Part shown: one piece after another, positions 43,227 to 54,482 of the stretch
Layout of the letters: every line of letters starts with the position of its first letter
Position numbering within the stretch: position 1 is the first letter of the stretch
NCBI GenBank assembly: GCA_028577615.1
Contig: JAJSDU010000005.1
Coordinates: 38,066-102,065 of the forward strand
Direction: 5' to 3'
DNA from: Nitrosomonas sp.
GTDB lineage: Bacteria; Pseudomonadota; Gammaproteobacteria; Burkholderiales; Nitrosomonadaceae
DNA length: 64,000 nucleotides
The notes under the pieces: model-generated
Databases searched by the model: none
What the model was told of the DNA's origin: nothing
What the model saw: the letters and a program-made list of their open reading frames with translations, nothing else
Position numbers and translations under genes: made by a program

Positions 43227-46200
43227 ATGAGCTGGAAACAACAACTGATCGAAGAGGTGTTTTTTAGCGGTCTGCGCAGCGTTCTGGCCAAGGCGCTGCC
43301 GGATTACTGGCAACGTCGGGCTAGTGAACGGTTCAACGATTTTAATCCGTTCAGCGTTATCTCAGGCAATCATGATTTGCTGCGCGCGGCGCGTCTGGCC
43401 TGGGTGCAGGCGGCGCTGGAAATGCTGGATGTGGTACGGAAAACGTCTCAATCCGGTGGGCAGGCATTTGATGATAAAAACACCGTTATACGGTTCGGAG
43501 CGCTGGCGCGTAACGCCATCCTGAAAATCCGTACGGATACATTGGATCGGTGCACCAATCCGGGCAACAGTCCGATCGACCATCATCTGCAAACCATCAT
43601 CGAAGGCACTACCGAATTCATTGCGCCGGGAAAAAGCAAAACGCAAAGCCAGTCATTGACGCTGGGTTTTGATCAGACGCTGGCGGCGATTACCGGCTGG
43701 CCGGCGCATGAACTGCCGCCGATGGTGAAGCAGATTGCACGTGACGGGTTGTCGATGATGAACAATGGCTCGAATCGTTCTTTTGGCGAGCTGGTGTTTG
43801 CCGCGTTTGCCGAAATTCTGAAAAATCCGGATCAGTATCCTGAGGCTTATCCGGTCTTTACCATTGCCACACTGGATGCGACGCGCAAGTTATCCGAGGA
43901 AATACTGGTCTGTACTTGCGGTATCGAATGAAAAAATCGACCGATCGATCGCAGTAATCGATGCGTTGCACGTATTTCAACAGGACGCGCAACGCTATCT
44001 GGATGTGCTGCCGCAGTTGGCGGCAGGGCAGGAGCGGATGGCCGGGCAATTGAACACCATTGAAAGCGGCGTCAGTGAAATTCTGAGCCGTATGGTGCAA
44101 ACCGCGCAAACCCACCCCGATGCCAGCGAAGCGGAATCGCTGGCCGAATACCGGAAATTTCTCGACCAGCTGGATCAGTGCGAATTCAAGCAAGTGCTGG
44201 ACAGCCAGCTCGGCAGTCTTGCCGGTTACCGGGCGCAATGCATAGCACGCTAGGCGCAGCCGCGCTATGCGATCGACAAACAGTTTACCCCGTTGGCGCT
44301 TATGCTCGATCAGGGCGAAGATGCGCCGGGCGAGCGTTATCTGCAGCAATCGCAACCTTTTCATGATTTGCGCGACGTGCTGGACGCTGTGCATGACGGT
44401 TAAACCGGTGCTGGTAAACGCTTTCTGGAGGATCTGGCGTTGAATCATCCAAGCGTGCGCGTCATTTTCAGTTGCCGCACGCTGGATTACGGCAGTCAGT
44501 TGACCACCAAAGACCTGCCGCGTATCCCGCAAGTGGAAATCACCGCGTTGACCGACCTGCAAATCGAACAGTTTCTGCGGGTCTATAGCCCGGTTCATGG
44601 CGAATCGTTATGGCGGCAATTGAAGTATACGCCGCAGGCCGATCTCTACCGTTCGCCGTATTACCTTAAACTGCTGATCGATCAGGCGCATGCCGGCAAG
44701 ATACCCAAAGGCCGCACGGCACTGTTTACCGGTTTTGTGCGTGCCATGTTGCAACGTGAAATCCCGGACAACGAGCGTTTGCGCGAGCAGGACTGGTTGC
44801 TGACCGAACGCGAGCGCAAGCGAATCGATCAATGGCAGAATGACTATGAACTGCCCAAACGCGGCAAGCTGTTTAATACGCTGGCAGCGTTTGCGTTTCA
44901 ATTGCAGCAGAAACAACGCGATGGCGAAACGGACAATGTCGGTAATTCCGGCAACTCCGGAAACAAGTCGCAGGTTAGTATCGATTTTGATGACGCGCTG
45001 GATGTGTTGTCGGAACAGATTGAGGATGAAAAACAGCAAGAGCATCTGCTCAACATTGCGGTGGACTTGCAGATTCTCGATATGCCGGGCGACGATGTGC
45101 TGTTTGTCATCAACTGCTGCAGGAATACTTTGCCGCGCGCTATCTGGCCGAACGTTTCAGCGCGGCAAAGGCAGAAGAAAGCAGTGCACTGATCGGTTTG
45201 GCCGGCAGTGCCTGACGCATTGCCGGGTTTGCCGACGACCGGCTGGGAGGAAACGTTTACCCTGGCTGCGGCAATGACGGCGGATGCCGATGCGTTCGTA
45301 CGTGCACTGGCGAAAGTCAATCTGCCGCTGGCCGGGCGTAGTGCGGCGCAACCTGATGTGACTGTCTCTGCCGAGTTGCGCGCGGATTTGCAGCACAGGC
45401 TGGTCGCGCGCAGCCGTGACATCGATACCGATCTGCGTGCACGCATTCTTGCAGGCGATGCACTGGGCGGGCTGGGTGATCCACGTTTCAAAGCGCAGCA
45501 GGGACCGTTGGGCCGCTACCTGCTGCCGCCGATGATCGCAGTTGATGGCGGTAGGTATACGATCGGCAGCGACGAGGGGCTGGAAGACGGTGAAGGCACC
45601 GAAGAAAGTACCCGGAGTGCTATGCGTATTGTCCACGATCTTTATAAAAATAATGTACAGGCTTTTATTCAATTAACTGAAGAATGAGCCTTGACTGAAG
45701 CGCAAATTCAGCAATGGCAAGACTATCTTGCGATGACCGATAACGCGTTTGAAACGCTGCTGAAAGAACGGTGGCCGGATCAGCGTTTTGTACAACCTGG
45801 CAAATGGGGCGATTCGGGATTTGATGCGCCGAACCAGCCGGTAGTCGGCGTGTGCTGGTTTGAAGCGCGTGCGTATTGCGCCTGGCTCAGCGCTCAAACC
45901 GGGCAGCATTACCGCCTGCCGACCGAGGCAGAATGGGAAGCCGCGGCAAGCGGCACGGCAGGGCGCCACTATCCGTGGGGAGAAGCATTTGATGCCACGT
46001 GGTGTAATACGGTTGAAGCCCGGCTGCGGCGTGTCACGCCGGTGGGGGTATTTGTTGAATCGGATACGCCTCCTTCGATATCTACATCGAATTCCGGTAT
46101 TGCCGATCTGGCAGGCAACGTGTGGGAATGGACCGGCAGTGCATACCAGTCGTATCCGTATCGGGCCAGCGACGGCCGAGAAGTGCCGGAAGGCGAGAAT

Positions 46201-46327
46201 CAGCGCGTGTTGCGCGGCGGCTCGTGGGTCAACCTCGGCAGGTACTGCCGTTCTGCTACCCGTCTCAACTTCGCTCCGTCTGATCGCTTCGACGCCACGC
46301 GGCTTTCGTCTTGCCCGAGGCCACTGA
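43227..46327 (+). pseudogene. Decayed NACHT NTPase with C-terminal FGE-sulfatase (C-lectin-like) domain
   Basis: The remains of one large gene in several frames. 43227-43931 encodes an intact N-terminal helical region; a +1 shift near 43905 leads into DALHVFQQDAQRYLDVLPQL, which stops at TAG 44251. The frame resumes with RYAIDKQFTPLALMLDQGE and stops at TAA 44401. The Walker A to Walker B part of the NACHT domain is missing: VHDG*TGAGKRF runs straight into the sensor-like RVIFSCRTLDYGS. The LLQEYFAARYLAERF helix is shifted near 45110, with a stop at 45213. A TGA at 45685 follows, with apparent loss of the start of the FGE domain. The rest (LPTEAEWEAAASGTAGRHY, GNVWEWTGSAYQ, RVLRGGSWV) is clear. 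A last shift puts the ending GFRLARGH (46301-46324) in another frame. NACHT proteins of this type belong to the STAND NTPases, often linked to defence. Confidence 0.8.
46228..46327 (+). other. Possible DGR-type variable region at the end of the FGE domain
   Basis: Between RGGSW and the frame-shifted GFRLARGH lie 23 codons, 21 of which end in C or T, with the first two bases apparently free (GTC, AAC, CTC, GGC, TAC, ACC, TTC, GCC and so on). This is the pattern left when AAY codons of a template repeat are adenine-mutagenised by a diversity-generating retroelement. No reverse transcriptase or template repeat is in the window. The ordinary FGE family also ends in GFRLA, so this remains an inference. 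Confidence 0.4.
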
Positions 46328-46435
46328 GCTCAAGTCAGGCAGGGCCGTGCCCGGAGGGCATGGCCTCCAGTCAGTGAGCAGGCCAGCAGCCGGCTGACCG
46401 CAGCGCGACGGAGCGCGCGAAGGCTCAGGCGGGGG

Positions 46436-46646: not shown

Positions 46647-47219
46647 ATGCGTACGATTTTTGCTGTTCTTGTGTTGATGCTCTGTTCCACGCATCTTGCC
46701 GCTGAAAATGACAACGCGGCGCAGCTTGAAGACAAAGCCAGACAGCTTGCCGCGCAGCTGGGCATGCAGTTGAAAGCGCGGCTGCAATCGGCGATTGAAA
46801 CGGGCGGGCCGGCCAGTGCGATTGCGGTGTGCAACGTCGCTGCGCCGGAAATTGCGGCAGAGCTGTCCAGAGACGGCTGGACAGTCGGGCGCACCAGTCT
46901 GAAACTGCGCAATCCCGCCAATCGGCCGGATGCGTGGGAACAAACGACGCTGCTCGCGTTTGAACAGCAACTCGCGTCCGGCACACCCGTGGCCAGTCTG
47001 CAGAACAGCACGGTTGAATCCGATGCCGGCGAGACCCGTTACCGGTTTATGAAGGCGATACCGGTTGATGGGGTTTGCATGGCTTGCCACGGTGAGACGA
47101 TCGCTGAGCCGGTGCGTGCGGCGCTGGCGGAAAAATATCCGCAGGATGCCGCAACCGGCTACAAGCCGGGTGAATTGCGCGGCGCGTTTACCATTACGAA
47201 GATTCTGGCTGCCGATTAG
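46647..47219 (+). CDS. Tll0287-like (DUF3365) periplasmic mono-heme protein
   Basis: A 190-aa exported protein. Signal peptide 1-19 (MRTIFAVLVLMLCSTHLAA); one c-type heme motif CMACH near residue 150 in VDGVCMACHGE; and the family core GPASAIAVCNVAAPEIA with RTSLKLRNPANRPDAWE. The Tll0287/DUF3365 domain is a heme sensor or redox domain found alone or fused to signalling modules. Here it is alone, so electron transfer or heme-based redox buffering is possible. GGAGG ten bases before the ATG is a strong ribosome binding site. It is not part of an evident operon. Confidence 0.85.
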   Translation: MRTIFAVLVLMLCSTHLAAENDNAAQLEDKARQLAAQLGMQLKARLQSAIETGGPASAIAVCNVAAPEIAAELSRDGWTVGRTSLKLRNPANRPDAWEQTTLLAFEQQLASGTPVASLQNSTVESDAGETRYRFMKAIPVDGVCMACHGETIAEPVRAALAEKYPQDAATGYKPGELRGAFTITKILAAD

Positions 47220-47407: not shown

Positions 47408-47494
47408 GTGGCTGTTGTTTGTTTCAAATCAAAATGTTCGGTTTGCAATTCTGATATGAATATGTAACTATTCATCGTCAAGGAGGGGATCACT

Positions 47495-50002
47495 ATGCAA
47501 ACTCCAGCGCAGACTGCTTCGCACGCCTTTCTCAGTAGTGCGCATTTTCCGGCAACTTCCAGGGATGAATCCCAATCCCTTGAGAATGCGCTTCAGCACA
47601 TCCTTGCACAAGATCATCAAGGCGGTTTTTATGCCATGCTCGCGCGTTATCAGCGTATTCTGGCAGATAACGGTCAACGCCATGTCTGGCCTGTCGTGCA
47701 CAAAAAACTCGAAACGCTGTTCAAATGCGGCAAGGCGGAGGTGATCAGCGGCCCGATGATCGGTATTCCGGTTTCGATACGCGACAGCGATTATTTCAGG
47801 AATCTGGATCGAAACGGAACCGGCGAACGGTCAGTGATGGCCAGTATCGAATGGATGGCAACGGCCTGGAACGCGACGTATGCCGATACCGGCCTGTGGA
47901 TGGGGAAGACGTTTGAACCCGTTTCGCGCGACACCGTTGCTCAAAAAACCGGCAATCATGCGCCGACGGTGAGTGCCTACAATGCGGAAACAATGCGTAT
48001 CGGGCGCAACTTTTTCCGCGAACCGCCCGATCCCAATCTGATTCAGGCGATTGGCCTGCCGGGACTGATGGTGTTGTGGAATCTGAAAAAGCGTCCGCTG
48101 AATACCGGCGCGGAAGGTTTTGACGGCGAGCTGCTGCCGGAAAATCTGGACAAGGAAAAAGCAATTCCTTACACGATGACCGGTGGTTATTTTCTGTGTG
48201 ATATTGGCCAATCGGTTGTTCCTGAAATGAATCACAAGGCTGTGTATCAGTTGAATTACCGCTGGCCTGCGCTGAAGCCGAGTTTTCCGATGACGCGACT
48301 GATCGATGAGATCGTGCGCATCGATGACGGCATTTATCTCGGGCAACTGGTTTTTGCCACGCGCCATTTCAGCCTCGGTAATATCACACTGCCCAACGGC
48401 GATGTCATTTCCATCGGTGAGAACTATCCCGAACGCGGCTTCTGGGAGAAAATCAAACGCTTGCTCGGCATGGGCGGGGCGGATGATAGGCAGTATTACG
48501 GATACCAGAATAACGGTTTCTTTTTGATGGTCGATCCGGCTTTTGCCAGGGCATTTTATGCCGACGACGCCTTTCCGCAGCTGCGGCCGCGTCCGGGTGA
48601 AACCGGTTATCATGAGCTGGGTTATGATCAGTCAGCCGCCGCAGCGCCAACGCCGGTTTCAGCACCGGCTGAAACGCAGGACGTTGCGGCTATATCAGGC
48701 AAAGTCAGGTACGAACCGGAAATTACAGACTGGACTGACGGCTGGCAACAGAATCCGGCGCTTGCCAGGAAATTCACTACGTTTATCCTGGAAGCTTCGT
48801 CGCTGGGTGCGCAGGATGATTTTGTCGAGGACATGCTTGGAAAAGGGGAATCGATACTCCAGATGTTGCAGCGGATCAGCCATGAAATTTCCGCGCAAAG
48901 CAATCCTGACGACGAACTGAAGCATTTTGAAAAGCTCAATGCATTGTTTCGCCGTGGTGTCGCGCCGAAAGTCAGTAACGGTCTGTTTCAAGGCAGCGGC
49001 GAGCGGGGTTATAACTGCCGCCTCGACAGCCGGGAAACGAACGACTGGTACGGCGAACCGGTGCGCACCACCGGATTCGATTATTATCATGGCGCTACGC
49101 TGAATCTGCACTGCGGATTTTCTGAAGCGTTCTCGCCGGAACGACATGAAAAACACGACGATGCCAGGCTTTTTCCCAGTTCGCTGGCCAGCCTGCTGGA
49201 TATGAATTCGCCGCCAAACGTGCTGAATATGACCTGGCATTCCATCGGGAAATTTATTTTTCCGTGGGCGGGAAAGTCGTTTGAACAAATCTCCGCGCGT
49301 AAGTTGAGCATGTTTCTGGATGAAAGCGACGATCTGGCCGAGCGCTATCCCGCAAGAGTCAAAACGCTCAAATCCTTTCTGGCCAGCAGACCACACTACA
49401 TGCTGGTGGAAAAGAACCGGGAGCATTACTGGAAAGCGGATGGCGCTTATGCGAAATATCTGCAAAGCGGCAGCTGGGATAACGGCATGTCCGATGAAGA
49501 CAAGGCATTCTGGGAACAGGAAGCTGCCGCGCACTGGGTGGACGGCAACAATATTCAGGACAAGCGCATCGTTGCAGCAGATCCGTTGATGCGTATTGTA
49601 GACATGAATTACCGCGTGCCCGATGCCTCCCTGCTGGCGGCCGCTGCGGAGGGGCCGACGCCCTTTGCACGGCAAGGCTATATTTTTCTGGGGACGGATG
49701 ATCGGGAATCGGTGCTGGCGATGAATAACGGGCCGGAAAAAAAGAAAAAGGTATTTCAGTTTCATTATCGTTTTCCCATGATCGGCGGTCCGACACCCAT
49801 CGGTTTTTGCCTGGATGAACTTGTGGAGGTCGCTGATGGCCTGTATCTCGGTCAACTGATTTACTCAACGGCGCTAACAGTGCCTTTTCATTCTTCGGTT
49901 GATCCGGGTGACTATAAATATCAGCTTTTTGGCTATTTTCTGTTGCTCGATGATGCCTGGCAATATCACCGGCTGGCAATTGGACTGGATACGCTGCACT
50001 AA
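47495..50002 (+). CDS. Large protein with two related halves, glycyl radical enzyme operon, function unknown
   Basis: An 835-aa protein I do not recognise, with no signal peptide or membrane helix. Residues about 45-345 and 430-835 look like diverged copies: LFKCGKAEVISGPMIG versus LFRRGVAPKVSNGLFQG; WMGKTFEPVS versus WAGKSFEQIS; TRLIDEIVRIDDGIYLGQL (about 265-285) versus GFCLDELVEVADGLYLGQL (about 770-788); then YQNNGFFLMVDPAF versus QLFGYFLLLDDAW. The two are joined by an Ala/Pro linker near residue 385. AGGAGGGG before the ATG is a very strong ribosome binding site. It is the first gene of a four-gene set with the glycyl radical enzyme 21 bases downstream, so it probably handles the substrate or product of that enzyme. 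Confidence 0.8.
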   Translation: MQTPAQTASHAFLSSAHFPATSRDESQSLENALQHILAQDHQGGFYAMLARYQRILADNGQRHVWPVVHKKLETLFKCGKAEVISGPMIGIPVSIRDSDYFRNLDRNGTGERSVMASIEWMATAWNATYADTGLWMGKTFEPVSRDTVAQKTGNHAPTVSAYNAETMRIGRNFFREPPDPNLIQAIGLPGLMVLWNLKKRPLNTGAEGFDGELLPENLDKEKAIPYTMTGGYFLCDIGQSVVPEMNHKAVYQLNYRWPALKPSFPMTRLIDEIVRIDDGIYLGQLVFATRHFSLGNITLPNGDVISIGENYPERGFWEKIKRLLGMGGADDRQYYGYQNNGFFLMVDPAFARAFYADDAFPQLRPRPGETGYHELGYDQSAAAAPTPVSAPAETQDVAAISGKVRYEPEITDWTDGWQQNPALARKFTTFILEASSLGAQDDFVEDMLGKGESILQMLQRISHEISAQSNPDDELKHFEKLNALFRRGVAPKVSNGLFQGSGERGYNCRLDSRETNDWYGEPVRTTGFDYYHGATLNLHCGFSEAFSPERHEKHDDARLFPSSLASLLDMNSPPNVLNMTWHSIGKFIFPWAGKSFEQISARKLSMFLDESDDLAERYPARVKTLKSFLASRPHYMLVEKNREHYWKADGAYAKYLQSGSWDNGMSDEDKAFWEQEAAAHWVDGNNIQDKRIVAADPLMRIVDMNYRVPDASLLAAAAEGPTPFARQGYIFLGTDDRESVLAMNNGPEKKKKVFQFHYRFPMIGGPTPIGFCLDELVEVADGLYLGQLIYSTALTVPFHSSVDPGDYKYQLFGYFLLLDDAWQYHRLAIGLDTLH

Positions 50003-50023: not shown

Positions 50024-53000
50024 ATGCAGACAGCGAATTTAAACCGTGGCGGCATAGCCATCGATCTTGAACAGGACGCTGTCGAAGCGGATGCGTTCAC
50101 TGCGACGGGCGAGGATGTTGCCTGCTTTCCGATTCCCAATGGCGCGCCGCAGCAAGTCAGGACATTGCAGGATCTTGCGCTGAGCCATATCCGGCTCAGT
50201 GATTTTCCCGTGGTGGAAGACTGGCGTAACCAGTTGTTTGACCCCGCATGGATACCGGAAGTCTGCGATGAATTGCCGCGTTTGCTGACCGAGTTTCTGC
50301 GCATACCGGAGAACGATGCGCTGCCGCCCGCGACGCGTCGTGCGCGTGCATTGAAGCATATTTTCATCCATAAAACGCCGTTGGTGCGCAAAACCGATCT
50401 GCTGCCGGGGCAGACCACGACCAGTTTTGTCGGTCCGGTGGTGCATATGGATATGAGCGGGTACTGTATCTGGCCGGAACTGGAAACCATCGCGACTCGT
50501 CCGCAGAATCCGTTCAAAATCAAACCGGAGGTGGCCAGACGGCTGAACGAGGAGATTTTTCCGTTCTGGCTGGAGCGGCGCACGGTTCAGGAAGCCGCGC
50601 GTTACGCGGATTACGATACCGCGGATTACGCCAATGATCATCGGGATACGGTGGATGGCGGCATGACGGGCGACCGGCCGTCGATCGATCCGCCGTTAAA
50701 GAAACGCGCGGGCGAAACGCCGAAATGCCAGGAATTGTTCGAGCGCATTGCGTTTTACCTGACCGATAAAGCCACGGCTGTTTCGCACACTGCGCCGGAT
50801 TTCAGCCGTGTACTCAGGTATGGCATCGACGGCCTGATCGCGCAGATACAGCTGGATATCCTGCATGTCAATGCGGCGCGCTTGACAGACGAGCAAAAGG
50901 TATTTGCCGAGTCGGTGATTACGGTTTACGAGGGCGTCAGGATTTATGCCGAACATCTTGCCGATGCTGCTGAGAAGGCTGGAAACAGCGAGCTGGCAAC
51001 TATTTGCCGCAAGGTACCGGCAAAACCGGCGGAAACGTTGGCCGAGGCGCTGACGGCTGTATGGATCTGCTATCACCTGCTGTTGCAGGAAAATACCAAT
51101 TTCGGGCTGTCGCTGGGCAGGCTGGATCAGACACTGAATGATTACTATCTGAACGACTGGCAGCAGCAGCCGGACGAAGCATCAAAAGCGGCGTATACAC
51201 GGAAAGCGGTTGAATTGATGTGCCATTTCTTTCTGCGCTGCTCCGATCATGTGCCCTTGTCGCCGGAAACGGCGGAGGTCTTGTTTGCCGGCAGTGGCTC
51301 CAATCAGGCGCTGACGGTTGGTGGTACGCACTATGTCGACGGCAAGACCGTCGATGCGGTCAACGATATGACTTACATCATTCTCAAAGCAACCGAAATA
51401 CTGGCGATTCGCGACCCCAATGTGCATGCGCGCTATCACAAGGATGTGCATCATCGCGCGCCCGATGGCCGGCCGCTGGCGCTGAACGAATTTTCACCCT
51501 ATCTGCGGCGGATTTGTCAGGTCAACCTGATCACGCGTGCGACCCCTGCGCTGCATGGCGATGCGCCGGTGATTCACAGCATGGCGAATTATTATGCGCG
51601 GCACGATCATGTCACGCTGGAAGAAGCGCTTGCCGATGCGCATGACTATGCATCCATTGGATGTATTGAGCAGAACGCCGACCACAAGCACTATGGGCAT
51701 ACCGGATCGACCCTGCTGGTTCTGCCCGCTGTACTCGAGCTGGCCATGTTTGGCGGCAAGCACCGCAGTGACGGTATCGAAAAAAATGATCCTAATCTGT
51801 TTTATGGCAAGCCGGAATACACCACGCCACCGCTGCGTGAAATGACGTCGATGCAGGATTTCATTGACAGCTTTCATGTTCAGCTCGACGAGATGGCGCG
51901 GCACTGCGTGCAGTTTAACAACTATCTGGGGCGCACTCTGGAGAAAGTGAGGCCTTCGCCGTTTTTGTCGGGCCTGTTCGATGGTCCGACCAACAAACCC
52001 GGCGACAGCGGCGCTAAATTCCGCGATGTCTCATCCGGTGGTGCGAAGTACAATTCGTCCGGTGTGGCGATTATCGGGCTTGCCGATGTGATCGATTCGT
52101 TCTGCGTGATCGATGCGCTGGTATTTGGCGGCAAAATGACGGCCGACGAACTGGTTGCCGTACTCGACGCCAATTTTGATCCGGCAAAATTACCGGTAAA
52201 CGAACGCCGGAATTTTCTGAGCACGCTGATCGCGATGATACGCAGACAGTTTTCGAATCGTGAAGACAAACCGCCCTTCAAACTGACACTGGCGCGTTTA
52301 CAGGAATGCGCACAACTGATTCGTCTCGCGCCGAAATACGGCGCCGGTGTGGATGAATCCGAAGATGGACTCTACAACAATGCACTGGCGGTCAAATACA
52401 CCCGCTTGTTGACCAGAATGATACAGGATGTTTTTTTCAAATACCGCACGCACCGTGGCGGGCGCTATCTGACGGGATACTGGAGCATGACCAATCATGC
52501 CGGTTTTGGCCTGCTCTACAAGGCCACACCTAACGGCCGCCGTGACAGCGCATCATTTGCCAGTGGCATTACGCCGTGCCCCGGCATCGTCAAAGGCAAC
52601 GGCGATCCGGTGTTGCTGCTCGATCATATGCTATCGGTGGTCAGTGTTGATCCCGATACGGTGCAAAATGGCTATACCTATAATCTGAGCCTGACGCCGC
52701 GCGGCAGGCAACACTTCAGGGAAGATACCGATCTGTTCGCCATGCATATGAAAACCTTCCTGGATCAGGATGGCGTGCTGGTACAGCTTTGCGTGACTTC
52801 GATCGAAGATTTTATCGCCGCGCATCAGGCCGCTACGGCGGCAGGCAGGGAAGGCGCGGGTGAAGCCGAGCAGCAGGCGCTGGCGCCGTATAAGGATTTG
52901 ATGATTCGCGTGGCCGGATATTCGGCCTATTACGTGACACTGAGTCCGCAAATGCGCCAGGAAATTATCGATCGCGCAAATTTTGATATGAAAAGCGGCG

Positions 53001-53029
53001 TCGAACAACATCCCGCAACAGGAGGCTGA
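50024..53029 (+). CDS. Glycyl radical enzyme (pyruvate formate-lyase-like), specificity unknown
   Basis: A 1001-aa glycyl radical enzyme, about 150-200 residues longer than typical members, mainly at the N-terminus. Family landmarks are all present: TVGGTHYVDGKTVDAVNDMTY; the catalytic thiyl site Cys547 in YASIGCIEQNADH, the Cys-x-Glu form seen in dehydratases, lyases and X-succinate synthases; KATPNGRRDSASFASGITP; and the glycyl-radical loop RVAGYSAYYVTLSPQMRQ with Gly965, 36 residues from the C-terminus. The single-Cys site excludes pyruvate formate-lyase itself, which uses two adjacent Cys. The substrate cannot be read from the sequence. AGGAGG precedes the ATG. The radical requires anoxia and the activase at 53700. 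Confidence 0.92.
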   Translation: MQTANLNRGGIAIDLEQDAVEADAFTATGEDVACFPIPNGAPQQVRTLQDLALSHIRLSDFPVVEDWRNQLFDPAWIPEVCDELPRLLTEFLRIPENDALPPATRRARALKHIFIHKTPLVRKTDLLPGQTTTSFVGPVVHMDMSGYCIWPELETIATRPQNPFKIKPEVARRLNEEIFPFWLERRTVQEAARYADYDTADYANDHRDTVDGGMTGDRPSIDPPLKKRAGETPKCQELFERIAFYLTDKATAVSHTAPDFSRVLRYGIDGLIAQIQLDILHVNAARLTDEQKVFAESVITVYEGVRIYAEHLADAAEKAGNSELATICRKVPAKPAETLAEALTAVWICYHLLLQENTNFGLSLGRLDQTLNDYYLNDWQQQPDEASKAAYTRKAVELMCHFFLRCSDHVPLSPETAEVLFAGSGSNQALTVGGTHYVDGKTVDAVNDMTYIILKATEILAIRDPNVHARYHKDVHHRAPDGRPLALNEFSPYLRRICQVNLITRATPALHGDAPVIHSMANYYARHDHVTLEEALADAHDYASIGCIEQNADHKHYGHTGSTLLVLPAVLELAMFGGKHRSDGIEKNDPNLFYGKPEYTTPPLREMTSMQDFIDSFHVQLDEMARHCVQFNNYLGRTLEKVRPSPFLSGLFDGPTNKPGDSGAKFRDVSSGGAKYNSSGVAIIGLADVIDSFCVIDALVFGGKMTADELVAVLDANFDPAKLPVNERRNFLSTLIAMIRRQFSNREDKPPFKLTLARLQECAQLIRLAPKYGAGVDESEDGLYNNALAVKYTRLLTRMIQDVFFKYRTHRGGRYLTGYWSMTNHAGFGLLYKATPNGRRDSASFASGITPCPGIVKGNGDPVLLLDHMLSVVSVDPDTVQNGYTYNLSLTPRGRQHFREDTDLFAMHMKTFLDQDGVLVQLCVTSIEDFIAAHQAATAAGREGAGEAEQQALAPYKDLMIRVAGYSAYYVTLSPQMRQEIIDRANFDMKSGVEQHPATGG

Positions 53030-53030
53030 A

Positions 53031-53675
53031 ATGCATGCAACGCTACCGGCGCTGCCGAACGGTATTCATCATCTTTTAAAAACCGGACTGCAACTCGGCG
53101 AGAAGCAGCCCGAGCTGGCCGGATTGTTGAACAAGGTGGAGGGCAGAATCCTTGCCGGTGGCATGGCTGCGCTGATCAAACTGGGTTTTGGCTTCCTGAT
53201 CAGCGAAGGATTGAGCGAAAGCAAGGCAGCGCAGGCGCAGGCTTTTTTTCAGGACAATTTTGTTATTAAAGATCCCTATGCTCCGCACGGTATCCGTTAT
53301 TACCAGGGAAAAATTCTCATCCGCACACGCAAACCGGATGACGATATGAATGTGTTGATTCGGTTCTGCCCCAATCCGTCCGAACTTTACCTGGATACGC
53401 CGCTGGGTAAACGGTTCAATCCCTGTGCCGTGGTCGACACGAAGGTGTTGAGCGAGGCGGAAGCGAACCGCATCGAACAGAATCCGGATAAGGTCGACCT
53501 GGTGATTCGTTTCAGCGATGCCAAAGCGATTCTGAATCTGGCGCAACGGCCTGACGCCGATGTGGTGCAGCTGCTGCTTGAGAATCTGGTGCAGATCAGC
53601 GGGAATTTCGGCCATATGTTCAAGTTTGGCGCGATCGGCAAGCATGTGCAGGCTGTATTGTCAGGAATACATTAG
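53031..53675 (+). CDS. SCP2-like (lipid-binding) protein of the glycyl radical operon
   Basis: A 214-aa protein without a signal peptide. The N-terminal half is helical (HHLLKTGLQLGEKQPELAGL, then a hydrophobic AALIKLGFGFLISEG). The C-terminal half (about 100-210) looks like a sterol-carrier-protein-2 fold: LVIRFSDAKAILNLAQRPDADVV followed by NLVQISGNFGHMFKFGAI, the pattern of a strand, helix and G-D/N-like turn in SCP2. The resemblance is by eye and moderate. Its ATG is one base after the enzyme stop, with AGGAGG in the end of the enzyme gene, so expression is coupled. A lipid-like or hydrophobic substrate for the operon is a reasonable inference. Confidence 0.6.
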   Translation: MHATLPALPNGIHHLLKTGLQLGEKQPELAGLLNKVEGRILAGGMAALIKLGFGFLISEGLSESKAAQAQAFFQDNFVIKDPYAPHGIRYYQGKILIRTRKPDDDMNVLIRFCPNPSELYLDTPLGKRFNPCAVVDTKVLSEAEANRIEQNPDKVDLVIRFSDAKAILNLAQRPDADVVQLLLENLVQISGNFGHMFKFGAIGKHVQAVLSGIH

Positions 53676-53699: not shown

Positions 53700-54482
53700 A
53701 TGAATGATCGTGGCCTGATATTCGACATCAAGCGCGACAGTACGGAAGACGGGCCTGGCATTCGCACCGTTGTTTTTTTTAAAGGCTGTCCACTGTCATG
53801 CATCTGGTGCCAGAATCCGGAGGGCAAGCGGTTTATGCCGGAAGCCGATGTGAACGGCAACCGGATTGGAACGTGGTATACCGTGGATGAACTGGTTTAT
53901 CGCTTATTGCAGGATAAGCCGTTTTTTACGACGACAGGCGGCGGCGTGACGCTTTCCGGTGGCGAACCGACGCTGCAGATGGATTTTGCCGGACAATTGC
54001 TCCAGGCACTCAAACGAGAGGAGGTTCATACCGCGTTGGAGACTAGCGGTTATTTTTCCTTAGACGCCTTCAAAGAGAAAATGCTGCCTTGGCTGGATTT
54101 GATTTATTTTGATCTCAAATTGATCGATGTGACTGAAAGCGAGCGTTATAGCGGGCGATCCAGCAAGAAAATTTTCGACAATTTCTCAACATTGATCAAA
54201 ACCGCGAAAATTCTTGTCATTCCCCGAATACCACTGATTCCCGGCATTACTGCAACCGAACGGAACCTCAAAGGTATCGCGGCATTTCTGGCAAAACACG
54301 GCGTTAAAACCTGTGCATTGATGCCGTACAACCCGCTCTGGCTGGGCAAGCTTGAGAGTCTGGGAATTGCTGCGCCCCCTTATACCCATAGCCGCTTCAT
54401 GACGACCGATGAACTCAAAACCTGCATCGATTATTTCACTCATGGATCGCATTCAGCGCAAACCCAAGCGGATAGTATGTAA
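53700..54482 (+). CDS. Glycyl radical enzyme activase (radical SAM)
   Basis: A 260-aa radical-SAM enzyme that abstracts a hydrogen from the glycine of the partner. The cluster motif is C30PLSC34IWC37QNPEG; TTGGGVTLSGGEPTLQMDF is the GGEP SAM-binding motif; DLIYFDLKLIDVTESERYSG is typical of activases. There is no inserted double [4Fe-4S] ferredoxin domain between the first motif and the barrel, so it is the short form, as in PflA. It starts 25 bases after the SCP2-like gene and closes the operon. It almost certainly serves the enzyme at 50024. Confidence 0.93.
   Translation: MNDRGLIFDIKRDSTEDGPGIRTVVFFKGCPLSCIWCQNPEGKRFMPEADVNGNRIGTWYTVDELVYRLLQDKPFFTTTGGGVTLSGGEPTLQMDFAGQLLQALKREEVHTALETSGYFSLDAFKEKMLPWLDLIYFDLKLIDVTESERYSGRSSKKIFDNFSTLIKTAKILVIPRIPLIPGITATERNLKGIAAFLAKHGVKTCALMPYNPLWLGKLESLGIAAPPYTHSRFMTTDELKTCIDYFTHGSHSAQTQADSM

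Follow-up and report, generated by a model that had tools for sequence, protein, structure and literature searches.

A predicted SCP2-fold protein encoded directly beside an unusual glycyl radical enzyme in Nitrosomonas points to possible anaerobic chemistry on a hydrophobic molecule

The closest described counterparts of the protein considered here are UbiJ, whose SCP2 domain reportedly binds hydrophobic ubiquinone intermediates and organises an enzyme complex, and UbiT, the proposed anaerobic counterpart of UbiJ, which would play the same role without oxygen and whose SCP2 domain comprises residues 45-133 of 174 (PMC6747719). Our protein resembles both in its predicted SCP2 fold (the best structural match is UbiJ-SCP2) and in being a small accessory protein beside metabolic enzymes; with UbiT it would also share an oxygen-independent pathway and an SCP2 domain positioned towards the C-terminal side (PMC6747719). 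It is unlike UbiJ and UbiT in that it has no match to the Pfam SCP2 profile (PF02036), its N-terminal helical part is longer, and its partner is a glycyl radical enzyme (GRE) as opposed to the hydroxylases UbiU/UbiV. As regards the SCP2 family at large, strands and helices succeed one another in the model as they do in that family, and there are fold matches to human, Yarrowia and Aedes SCP2, but the protein lies below Pfam detection. The partner GRE is like the B12-independent glycerol/diol dehydratases and other PFL2-type GREs in its PF02901 domain and its Gly/Cys/Glu/His/Arg catalytic set; unlike the dehydratases, it has Phe and Gly in place of the diol-binding His281 and Asp447, and it is 1001 aa long versus 787 aa for 1r8w. 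To our knowledge, GREs of known substrate act mostly on small soluble molecules, the exception being the hydrocarbon-using succinate synthases. We found no description of this gene block in the titles and abstract openings of the open-licence papers that we searched.

The window (the whole 64-kb stretch of Nitrosomonas DNA that was analysed) comes from a host genome of 2.6 Mb, the assembly of which is 90.5% complete; the loci most similar to it belong to Nitrosomonas MAGs and strains. The block runs on the + strand in the order 835-aa protein, GRE, SCP2-like gene and GRE activase, and a dihydrolipoamide dehydrogenase-type gene comes after it:

47419..47432, + strand: one-mismatch FNR-box-like site TTGTTTCAAATCAA, located 76 bases 5' of the first block gene
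47495..50002, + strand: 835-aa conserved protein without a Pfam/NCBIfam domain; internal tandem repeat (hhalign), alignment A2
50024..53029, + strand: glycyl radical enzyme, 1001 aa, of a subfamily without a name; PF02901
53031..53675, + strand: SCP2-like gene, 214 aa, ATG start; ORF, alignment A1, model, Foldseek and hydropathy
53700..54482, + strand: GRE-activating radical SAM enzyme, 260 aa, CxxxCxxC, 5 Cys; TIGR02494
54598-56058, + strand: dihydrolipoamide dehydrogenase-type gene, 3' of the activase

Just 5' of the block lie genes for an FGE-sulfatase-type domain protein (45691-46377) and a Tll0287-like protein (46647-47219).

The earlier note on this DNA placed the start of the SCP2-like gene one base past the stop of the enzyme gene, and so it is: the GRE stop occupies 53027-53029 and the ATG begins at 53031. 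Its ribosome-binding site, AGGAGG, sits inside the tail of the GRE gene. The gap from GRE stop to SCP2-like start is 1-21 nt in the 19 junctions that we measured, and the protein is 51-97% identical across 20 relatives (the closest, at 97%, in Nitrosomonas sp. SJ634); for these two reasons, 53031-53675 is a real gene. In alignment A1, which contains 21 SCP2-like sequences, column identity averages 77% and 62 columns are invariant, a number that is high for a lipid carrier alone and that equally fits a protein-protein interface.

The SCP2-like gene lies directly 3' of the GRE in 19/19 measured junctions. Bearing in mind that these loci were retrieved via the SCP2-like gene, this half of the pairing test is not independent; the independent test is a search from the GRE side, which among 61 relative genomes found the GRE in 9 and the SCP2-like gene in 10, with all 9 GRE genomes also carrying the gene. 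The tenth gene-bearing genome (G023) has an SCP2-like gene with a broken frame and no GRE match. The GRE is in the same locus for 18 of the 21 loci that carry the SCP2-like protein. The sequences of L017 and L021 begin within the SCP2-like gene; the first part of the L017 copy, together with a 72% identical GRE, was located at the terminus of a second contig from that genome. L020 (2751-4060), in which a fragment of the SCP2-like protein (residues 77-181) and of the activase (110-258) occur with no GRE match, is a decayed remnant of the block. The GREs of alignment A3 are 66-95% identical to that of the window, the GRE of L068 is 62% identical, and the pairing is kept in such distant loci (L068, L069, L070 and L018; GRE 62-72% identical) as well as in 9 of the 61 relatives. 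Thus, the coupling proposed in the earlier note is supported and is tight, the same pair does recur in other genomes, and we conclude that the gene pair is real and specific.

Within the set of 61 relatives, all matches fall inside the genus (gene in 10/37 genomes, GRE in 9/37), which marks the block as accessory. Wider samples are sparser still: the SCP2-like gene occurs in 3/398 genomes of the phylum sample (host included), in 2/295 genomes around the Nitrospiria locus (the Nitrospiria genome included), and in 1/48 genomes of the class of G279, namely G279 itself. A remote phylum match (G491, E 3.1e-4) was dropped because it runs antisense to a long ORF. Gammaproteobacteria are among the carriers, which are labelled Nitrosomonas, Sedimenticola and, for three MAGs, Sulfuricurvum, Candidatus Polarisedimenticolaceae and Nitrospiria; strains with the block include N. 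oligotropha Nm45 and Nm75 and N. aestuarii Nm36. The block therefore recurs across phyla but is rare; this patchy distribution, combined with high identity, suggests horizontal transfer. The GRE gene appears split in L010 (genome G028); it adjoins runs of N, and we read the split as an assembly gap.

The partner is evidently a GRE: it matches PF02901 at E 3.4e-96, and its C-terminal motif RVAGYSAYY, which includes Gly965 (the predicted radical residue, codon 52916-52918), does not vary among the 17 sequences of A3, although the PF01228 score of 19.9 bits is slightly below the 22.2 cut-off. All of the named GRE equivalogs (CutC, HypD, HpsG/HpfG, HPAD, IAD and PFL) score far below their NCBIfam cut-offs, the best of them reaching 201 bits versus 1050; the broader subfamily model TIGR01774 gives 322.9 versus 678.2. 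By these profile comparisons, the enzyme belongs to no named GRE family. All 50 matching plasmid records are <60% identical to it (23.9-25.6% among the matches listed). Among solved structures, PFL2 (2f3o) and glycerol dehydratase (1r8w) come closest in sequence. We mapped residues by profile alignment to 1r8w, with substrate residues in 1r9d numbering, and took the roles of the mapped residues to be those that they have in glycerol dehydratase. The catalytic residues are kept (glycerol dehydratase to GRE: His164 to His255, Cys433 to Cys547, Glu435 to Glu549, Gly763 to Gly965, Arg782 to Arg984), whereas the pocket residues are changed (His281 to Phe360, Ser282 to Gly361, Tyr339 to Asn427, Asp447 to Gly561, Tyr640 to Trp820), so that the substrate-binding set of the B12-independent diol dehydratases (His281, Ser282, Tyr339, Asp447) is absent from this enzyme. 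All ten mapped residues are invariant across the 17 sequences of A3. This combination of kept and replaced residues indicates that the radical core is intact and that the pocket is different and less polar, and the changes relative to glycerol dehydratase would suit a substrate of greater size or hydrophobicity.

We also obtained an AlphaFold model of the SCP2-like protein, which is of moderate quality (mean pLDDT 67.6, pTM 0.68) and derives from a shallow alignment of 21 sequences. Confidence is highest for residues 71-160 (block pLDDT 80-92) and lower for residues 1-70 (31-69) and 171-214 (41-58); the last of these regions includes the final SCP2 helices and strand. The predicted architecture comprises an N-terminal helical part (~1-77) and a C-terminal SCP2-type alpha/beta domain (~78-211), in which strands are followed by a helix (142-149), a strand (157-161), two helices (164-171 and 178-184), a strand (188-191) and a C-terminal helix, which we take to be the SCP2 order. 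When the model was compared with the PDB by Foldseek (350,542 chains), 13 of the best 15 rows carried the SCP2 label (UbiJ-SCP2, Aedes SCP2-like, 2cx7, Yarrowia SCP2 and human SCP2), and the remaining two were the alkylsulfatase 2yhe, an enzyme with an SCP2-like C-terminal domain. The best row, 6h6p (UbiJ-SCP2), has E 0.016, probability 0.99, an rmsd of 5.2 and a TM score of 0.60 by target length and 0.36 by query length. No row reached E <=0.001, and several of the SCP2 rows superpose poorly (rmsd 5-12 angstroms).

The sequence evidence is of a different kind. None of the 21 family members matched the Pfam SCP2 profile, even at E 10; thus, the SCP2 look that the earlier note gave to the C-terminal half stands at the level of the predicted fold (model and Foldseek) and not in profile searches, the check that the note itself had named, where no SCP2 match was found. 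The host genome has no PF02036 (UbiJ/UbiT-type SCP2) match at E 0.001 (assembly 90.5% complete), and 48/56 genomes of the class sample do have one. In the Pfam/NCBIfam scans the sole match of the SCP2-like protein was to KARI_C, at a chance-level E of 0.11, and neither the protein nor its profile found a credible match among PDB sequences. For hhalign we assembled four partner sets, with the UbiJ-like and UbiT-like members assigned by eye. Against the UbiJ-like SCP2 domains the probability was 18-26%, with residues 140-198 aligned in a register that agrees with the predicted fold; the score (25.8) exceeded the shuffle maximum (19.9), and 0/100 column shuffles were as high. The other sets did not respond: 30 pooled SCP2 domains gave probabilities of 4.0% and 1.8% (5/100 shuffles as high, not significant), the UbiT-like domains were not significant (7/100), and a three-sequence set of other SCP2 domains was near zero. 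As one of the four sets responds, we use the UbiJ-like signal as supporting evidence only.

These data bear on the possibility that SCP2 is the wrong label for this protein and that the fold resemblance is a by-product of the shallow alignment. The Pfam result, the Foldseek E values and superpositions, and the low confidence of the model over 171-214 would all be expected on that account; the convergence of 13 of the best 15 rows on one fold label, and the separate UbiJ-like profile signal in the same register, would not, and we consider it improbable. An SCP2-type fold for the C-terminal domain is, in our judgement, probable from the model, and the label 'SCP2-like' stands on fold and not on sequence family. 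The structure prediction that the earlier note had called for thus yielded SCP2 topology in a model of moderate quality, with a best Foldseek E of just 0.016.

Another feature of the protein is a hydrophobic segment in its N-terminal part, at residues 40-58 of the window protein (19-residue mean hydropathy 1.86). In 21 of 24 rows (two of the rows being the same gene) the hydropathy maximum falls around residues 36-59, and three members, L018, L068 and L069, have it elsewhere. Judged by its hydropathy, this segment (~40-58) may contact the membrane.

The activase scores 219 bits against TIGR02494 (cut-off 174.35). We compared its cysteine content in six chosen loci (L071, which has a longer ORF with 11 Cys and an upstream extension, was left out): a Cys-rich ferredoxin-like insert is absent from the window, L009 and L013 (5, 7 and 5 Cys) and present in L018, L069 and L068 (14, 15 and 16 Cys). 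The occurrence of insert-bearing and insert-free activases in the same block offers a natural experiment on the role of the insert.

It also brings into play a second account, in which the SCP2-fold protein binds no lipid and is a structural or regulatory subunit of the GRE, concerned with stability, activase docking or radical protection. Small subunits occur in other GREs, such as 4-hydroxyphenylacetate decarboxylase and benzylsuccinate synthase, and SCP2 folds also serve without lipid transport, as they do at the C-terminal end of alkylsulfatases and Eis acetyltransferases. The invariant columns of A1 and the adjacency to the GRE and activase genes fit a protein-protein interface, and an activase without an insert makes dependence on a partner conceivable. 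On the other hand, the three loci with an insert still have the SCP2-like protein, which hence does not replace the insert; the small GRE subunits of which we are aware are Fe-S proteins, unlike this one; and the hydrophobic segment, outside L018, L068 and L069, fits contact with a membrane or lipid. We regard a purely structural or regulatory subunit as unlikely, though deserving more weight than a spurious fold.

The 835-aa protein that opens the block has no Pfam match of note in 14 members. It is 57-91% identical in 13 relatives (A2) and contains an internal tandem repeat (hhalign probability 98.2%, E 4.4e-14); its AlphaFold model (mean pLDDT 43.4) is too poor to use. Motif look-alikes pointed to kinship with GXWXG/DUF4334, which hhalign did not bear out, at a probability of about 1% (N-terminal half, score 19.9, 1/50 shuffles higher; C-terminal half, 20.2, scored without shuffles). 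The gene occurs in 10/14 cassette genomes, being absent from G279, G506, G803 and G806, and is on the other strand in L015 and L021. In the 398-genome phylum sample the protein is found in two genomes only, both of which have the GRE block. A single stop codon interrupts the gene in G006/L071 (2848-5298) and in G805, and these copies of the block look decayed.

In 14/19 loci, a DUF6765 ORF lies directly 3' of the activase (e.g., L009 9418-10509); on inspection, the arrangement of its His and Asp residues is reminiscent of zinc phospholipase C or of HD-type folds, a likeness that we offer as an assumption. Such a neighbour invites the idea that the SCP2-like protein acts on membrane lipids, alone or with the DUF6765 protein, and shares only its regulation with the GRE. 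Against this, the host genome has no DUF6765 match at E 0.001 (a search without a positive control, in the 90.5% complete assembly), and the pairing with the GRE holds where DUF6765 does not adjoin the block (the window, L001, L012, L018, L019, L068, L069 and L071). We find this idea the least credible of the alternatives, and very improbable.

Some upstream sequences suggest anoxic control of the block. An exact FNR-like box lies within 400 bases upstream in 4/16 cassettes (L008, L009, L011 and L016), three of which (L009, L011 and L016) have a sequence in common and look closely related; an exact site occurred in 0.125% of shuffled stretches, the shuffles preserving single-base composition only. 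In L009, a CRP/FNR-family regulator gene (1480-2229) is divergent from the block, and the exact box (2385-2398) lies between the two. One-mismatch sites are located upstream of the block in the window and L001; since sites of this kind are frequent (7 in the 64-kb window, TTGTTTCAAATCAA included), the window's own FNR-box-like site is weak on its own.

We hypothesize, by analogy with UbiJ and UbiT, that the protein is an SCP2-fold accessory of an anoxic GRE, one that binds a hydrophobic substrate or positions the GRE at the membrane; we put this forward tentatively, as a reading with a little less than an even chance of being right. The activase would install the radical on the GRE, where the Gly965 radical would generate a thiyl at Cys547 that attacks the substrate, and the SCP2-fold protein would retain the hydrophobic substrate or intermediate, or anchor the GRE to the membrane, on which the hydrophobic stretch of its N-terminal helices could rest. 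The same pathway would also involve the 835-aa protein, as well as the DUF6765 protein in the loci that have it. The data show a conserved gene block, the pairing with the GRE, the catalytic motifs of that enzyme and an SCP2 topology in a moderate model; a hydrophobic ligand, its delivery to the GRE, membrane contact and anoxic expression are what we infer. The lipid carrier of the earlier note, with its long-chain, isoprenoid or aromatic substrate, is an idea of the same inferential kind, and as a whole it is plausible.

More doubtful, and more far-reaching, is the proposal of a GRE class whose substrate, handed over by a dedicated SCP2-fold partner, would be a membrane lipid, an isoprenoid or a molecule of the quinone type. 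With its small size, its conservation across phyla and its occurrence in named strains, the block lends itself to testing. If the GRE is indeed tied to an SCP2-fold protein, GRE chemistry would extend to membrane lipids or quinone-like compounds, and an oxygen-sensitive radical pathway would operate in ammonia oxidisers, organisms otherwise known mainly as aerobes. If the proposal is true, oxidisers of ammonia and of sulfur that live at the border between oxic and anoxic conditions would possess an anoxic lipid-modifying radical system, of which the 835-aa protein would be a third component.
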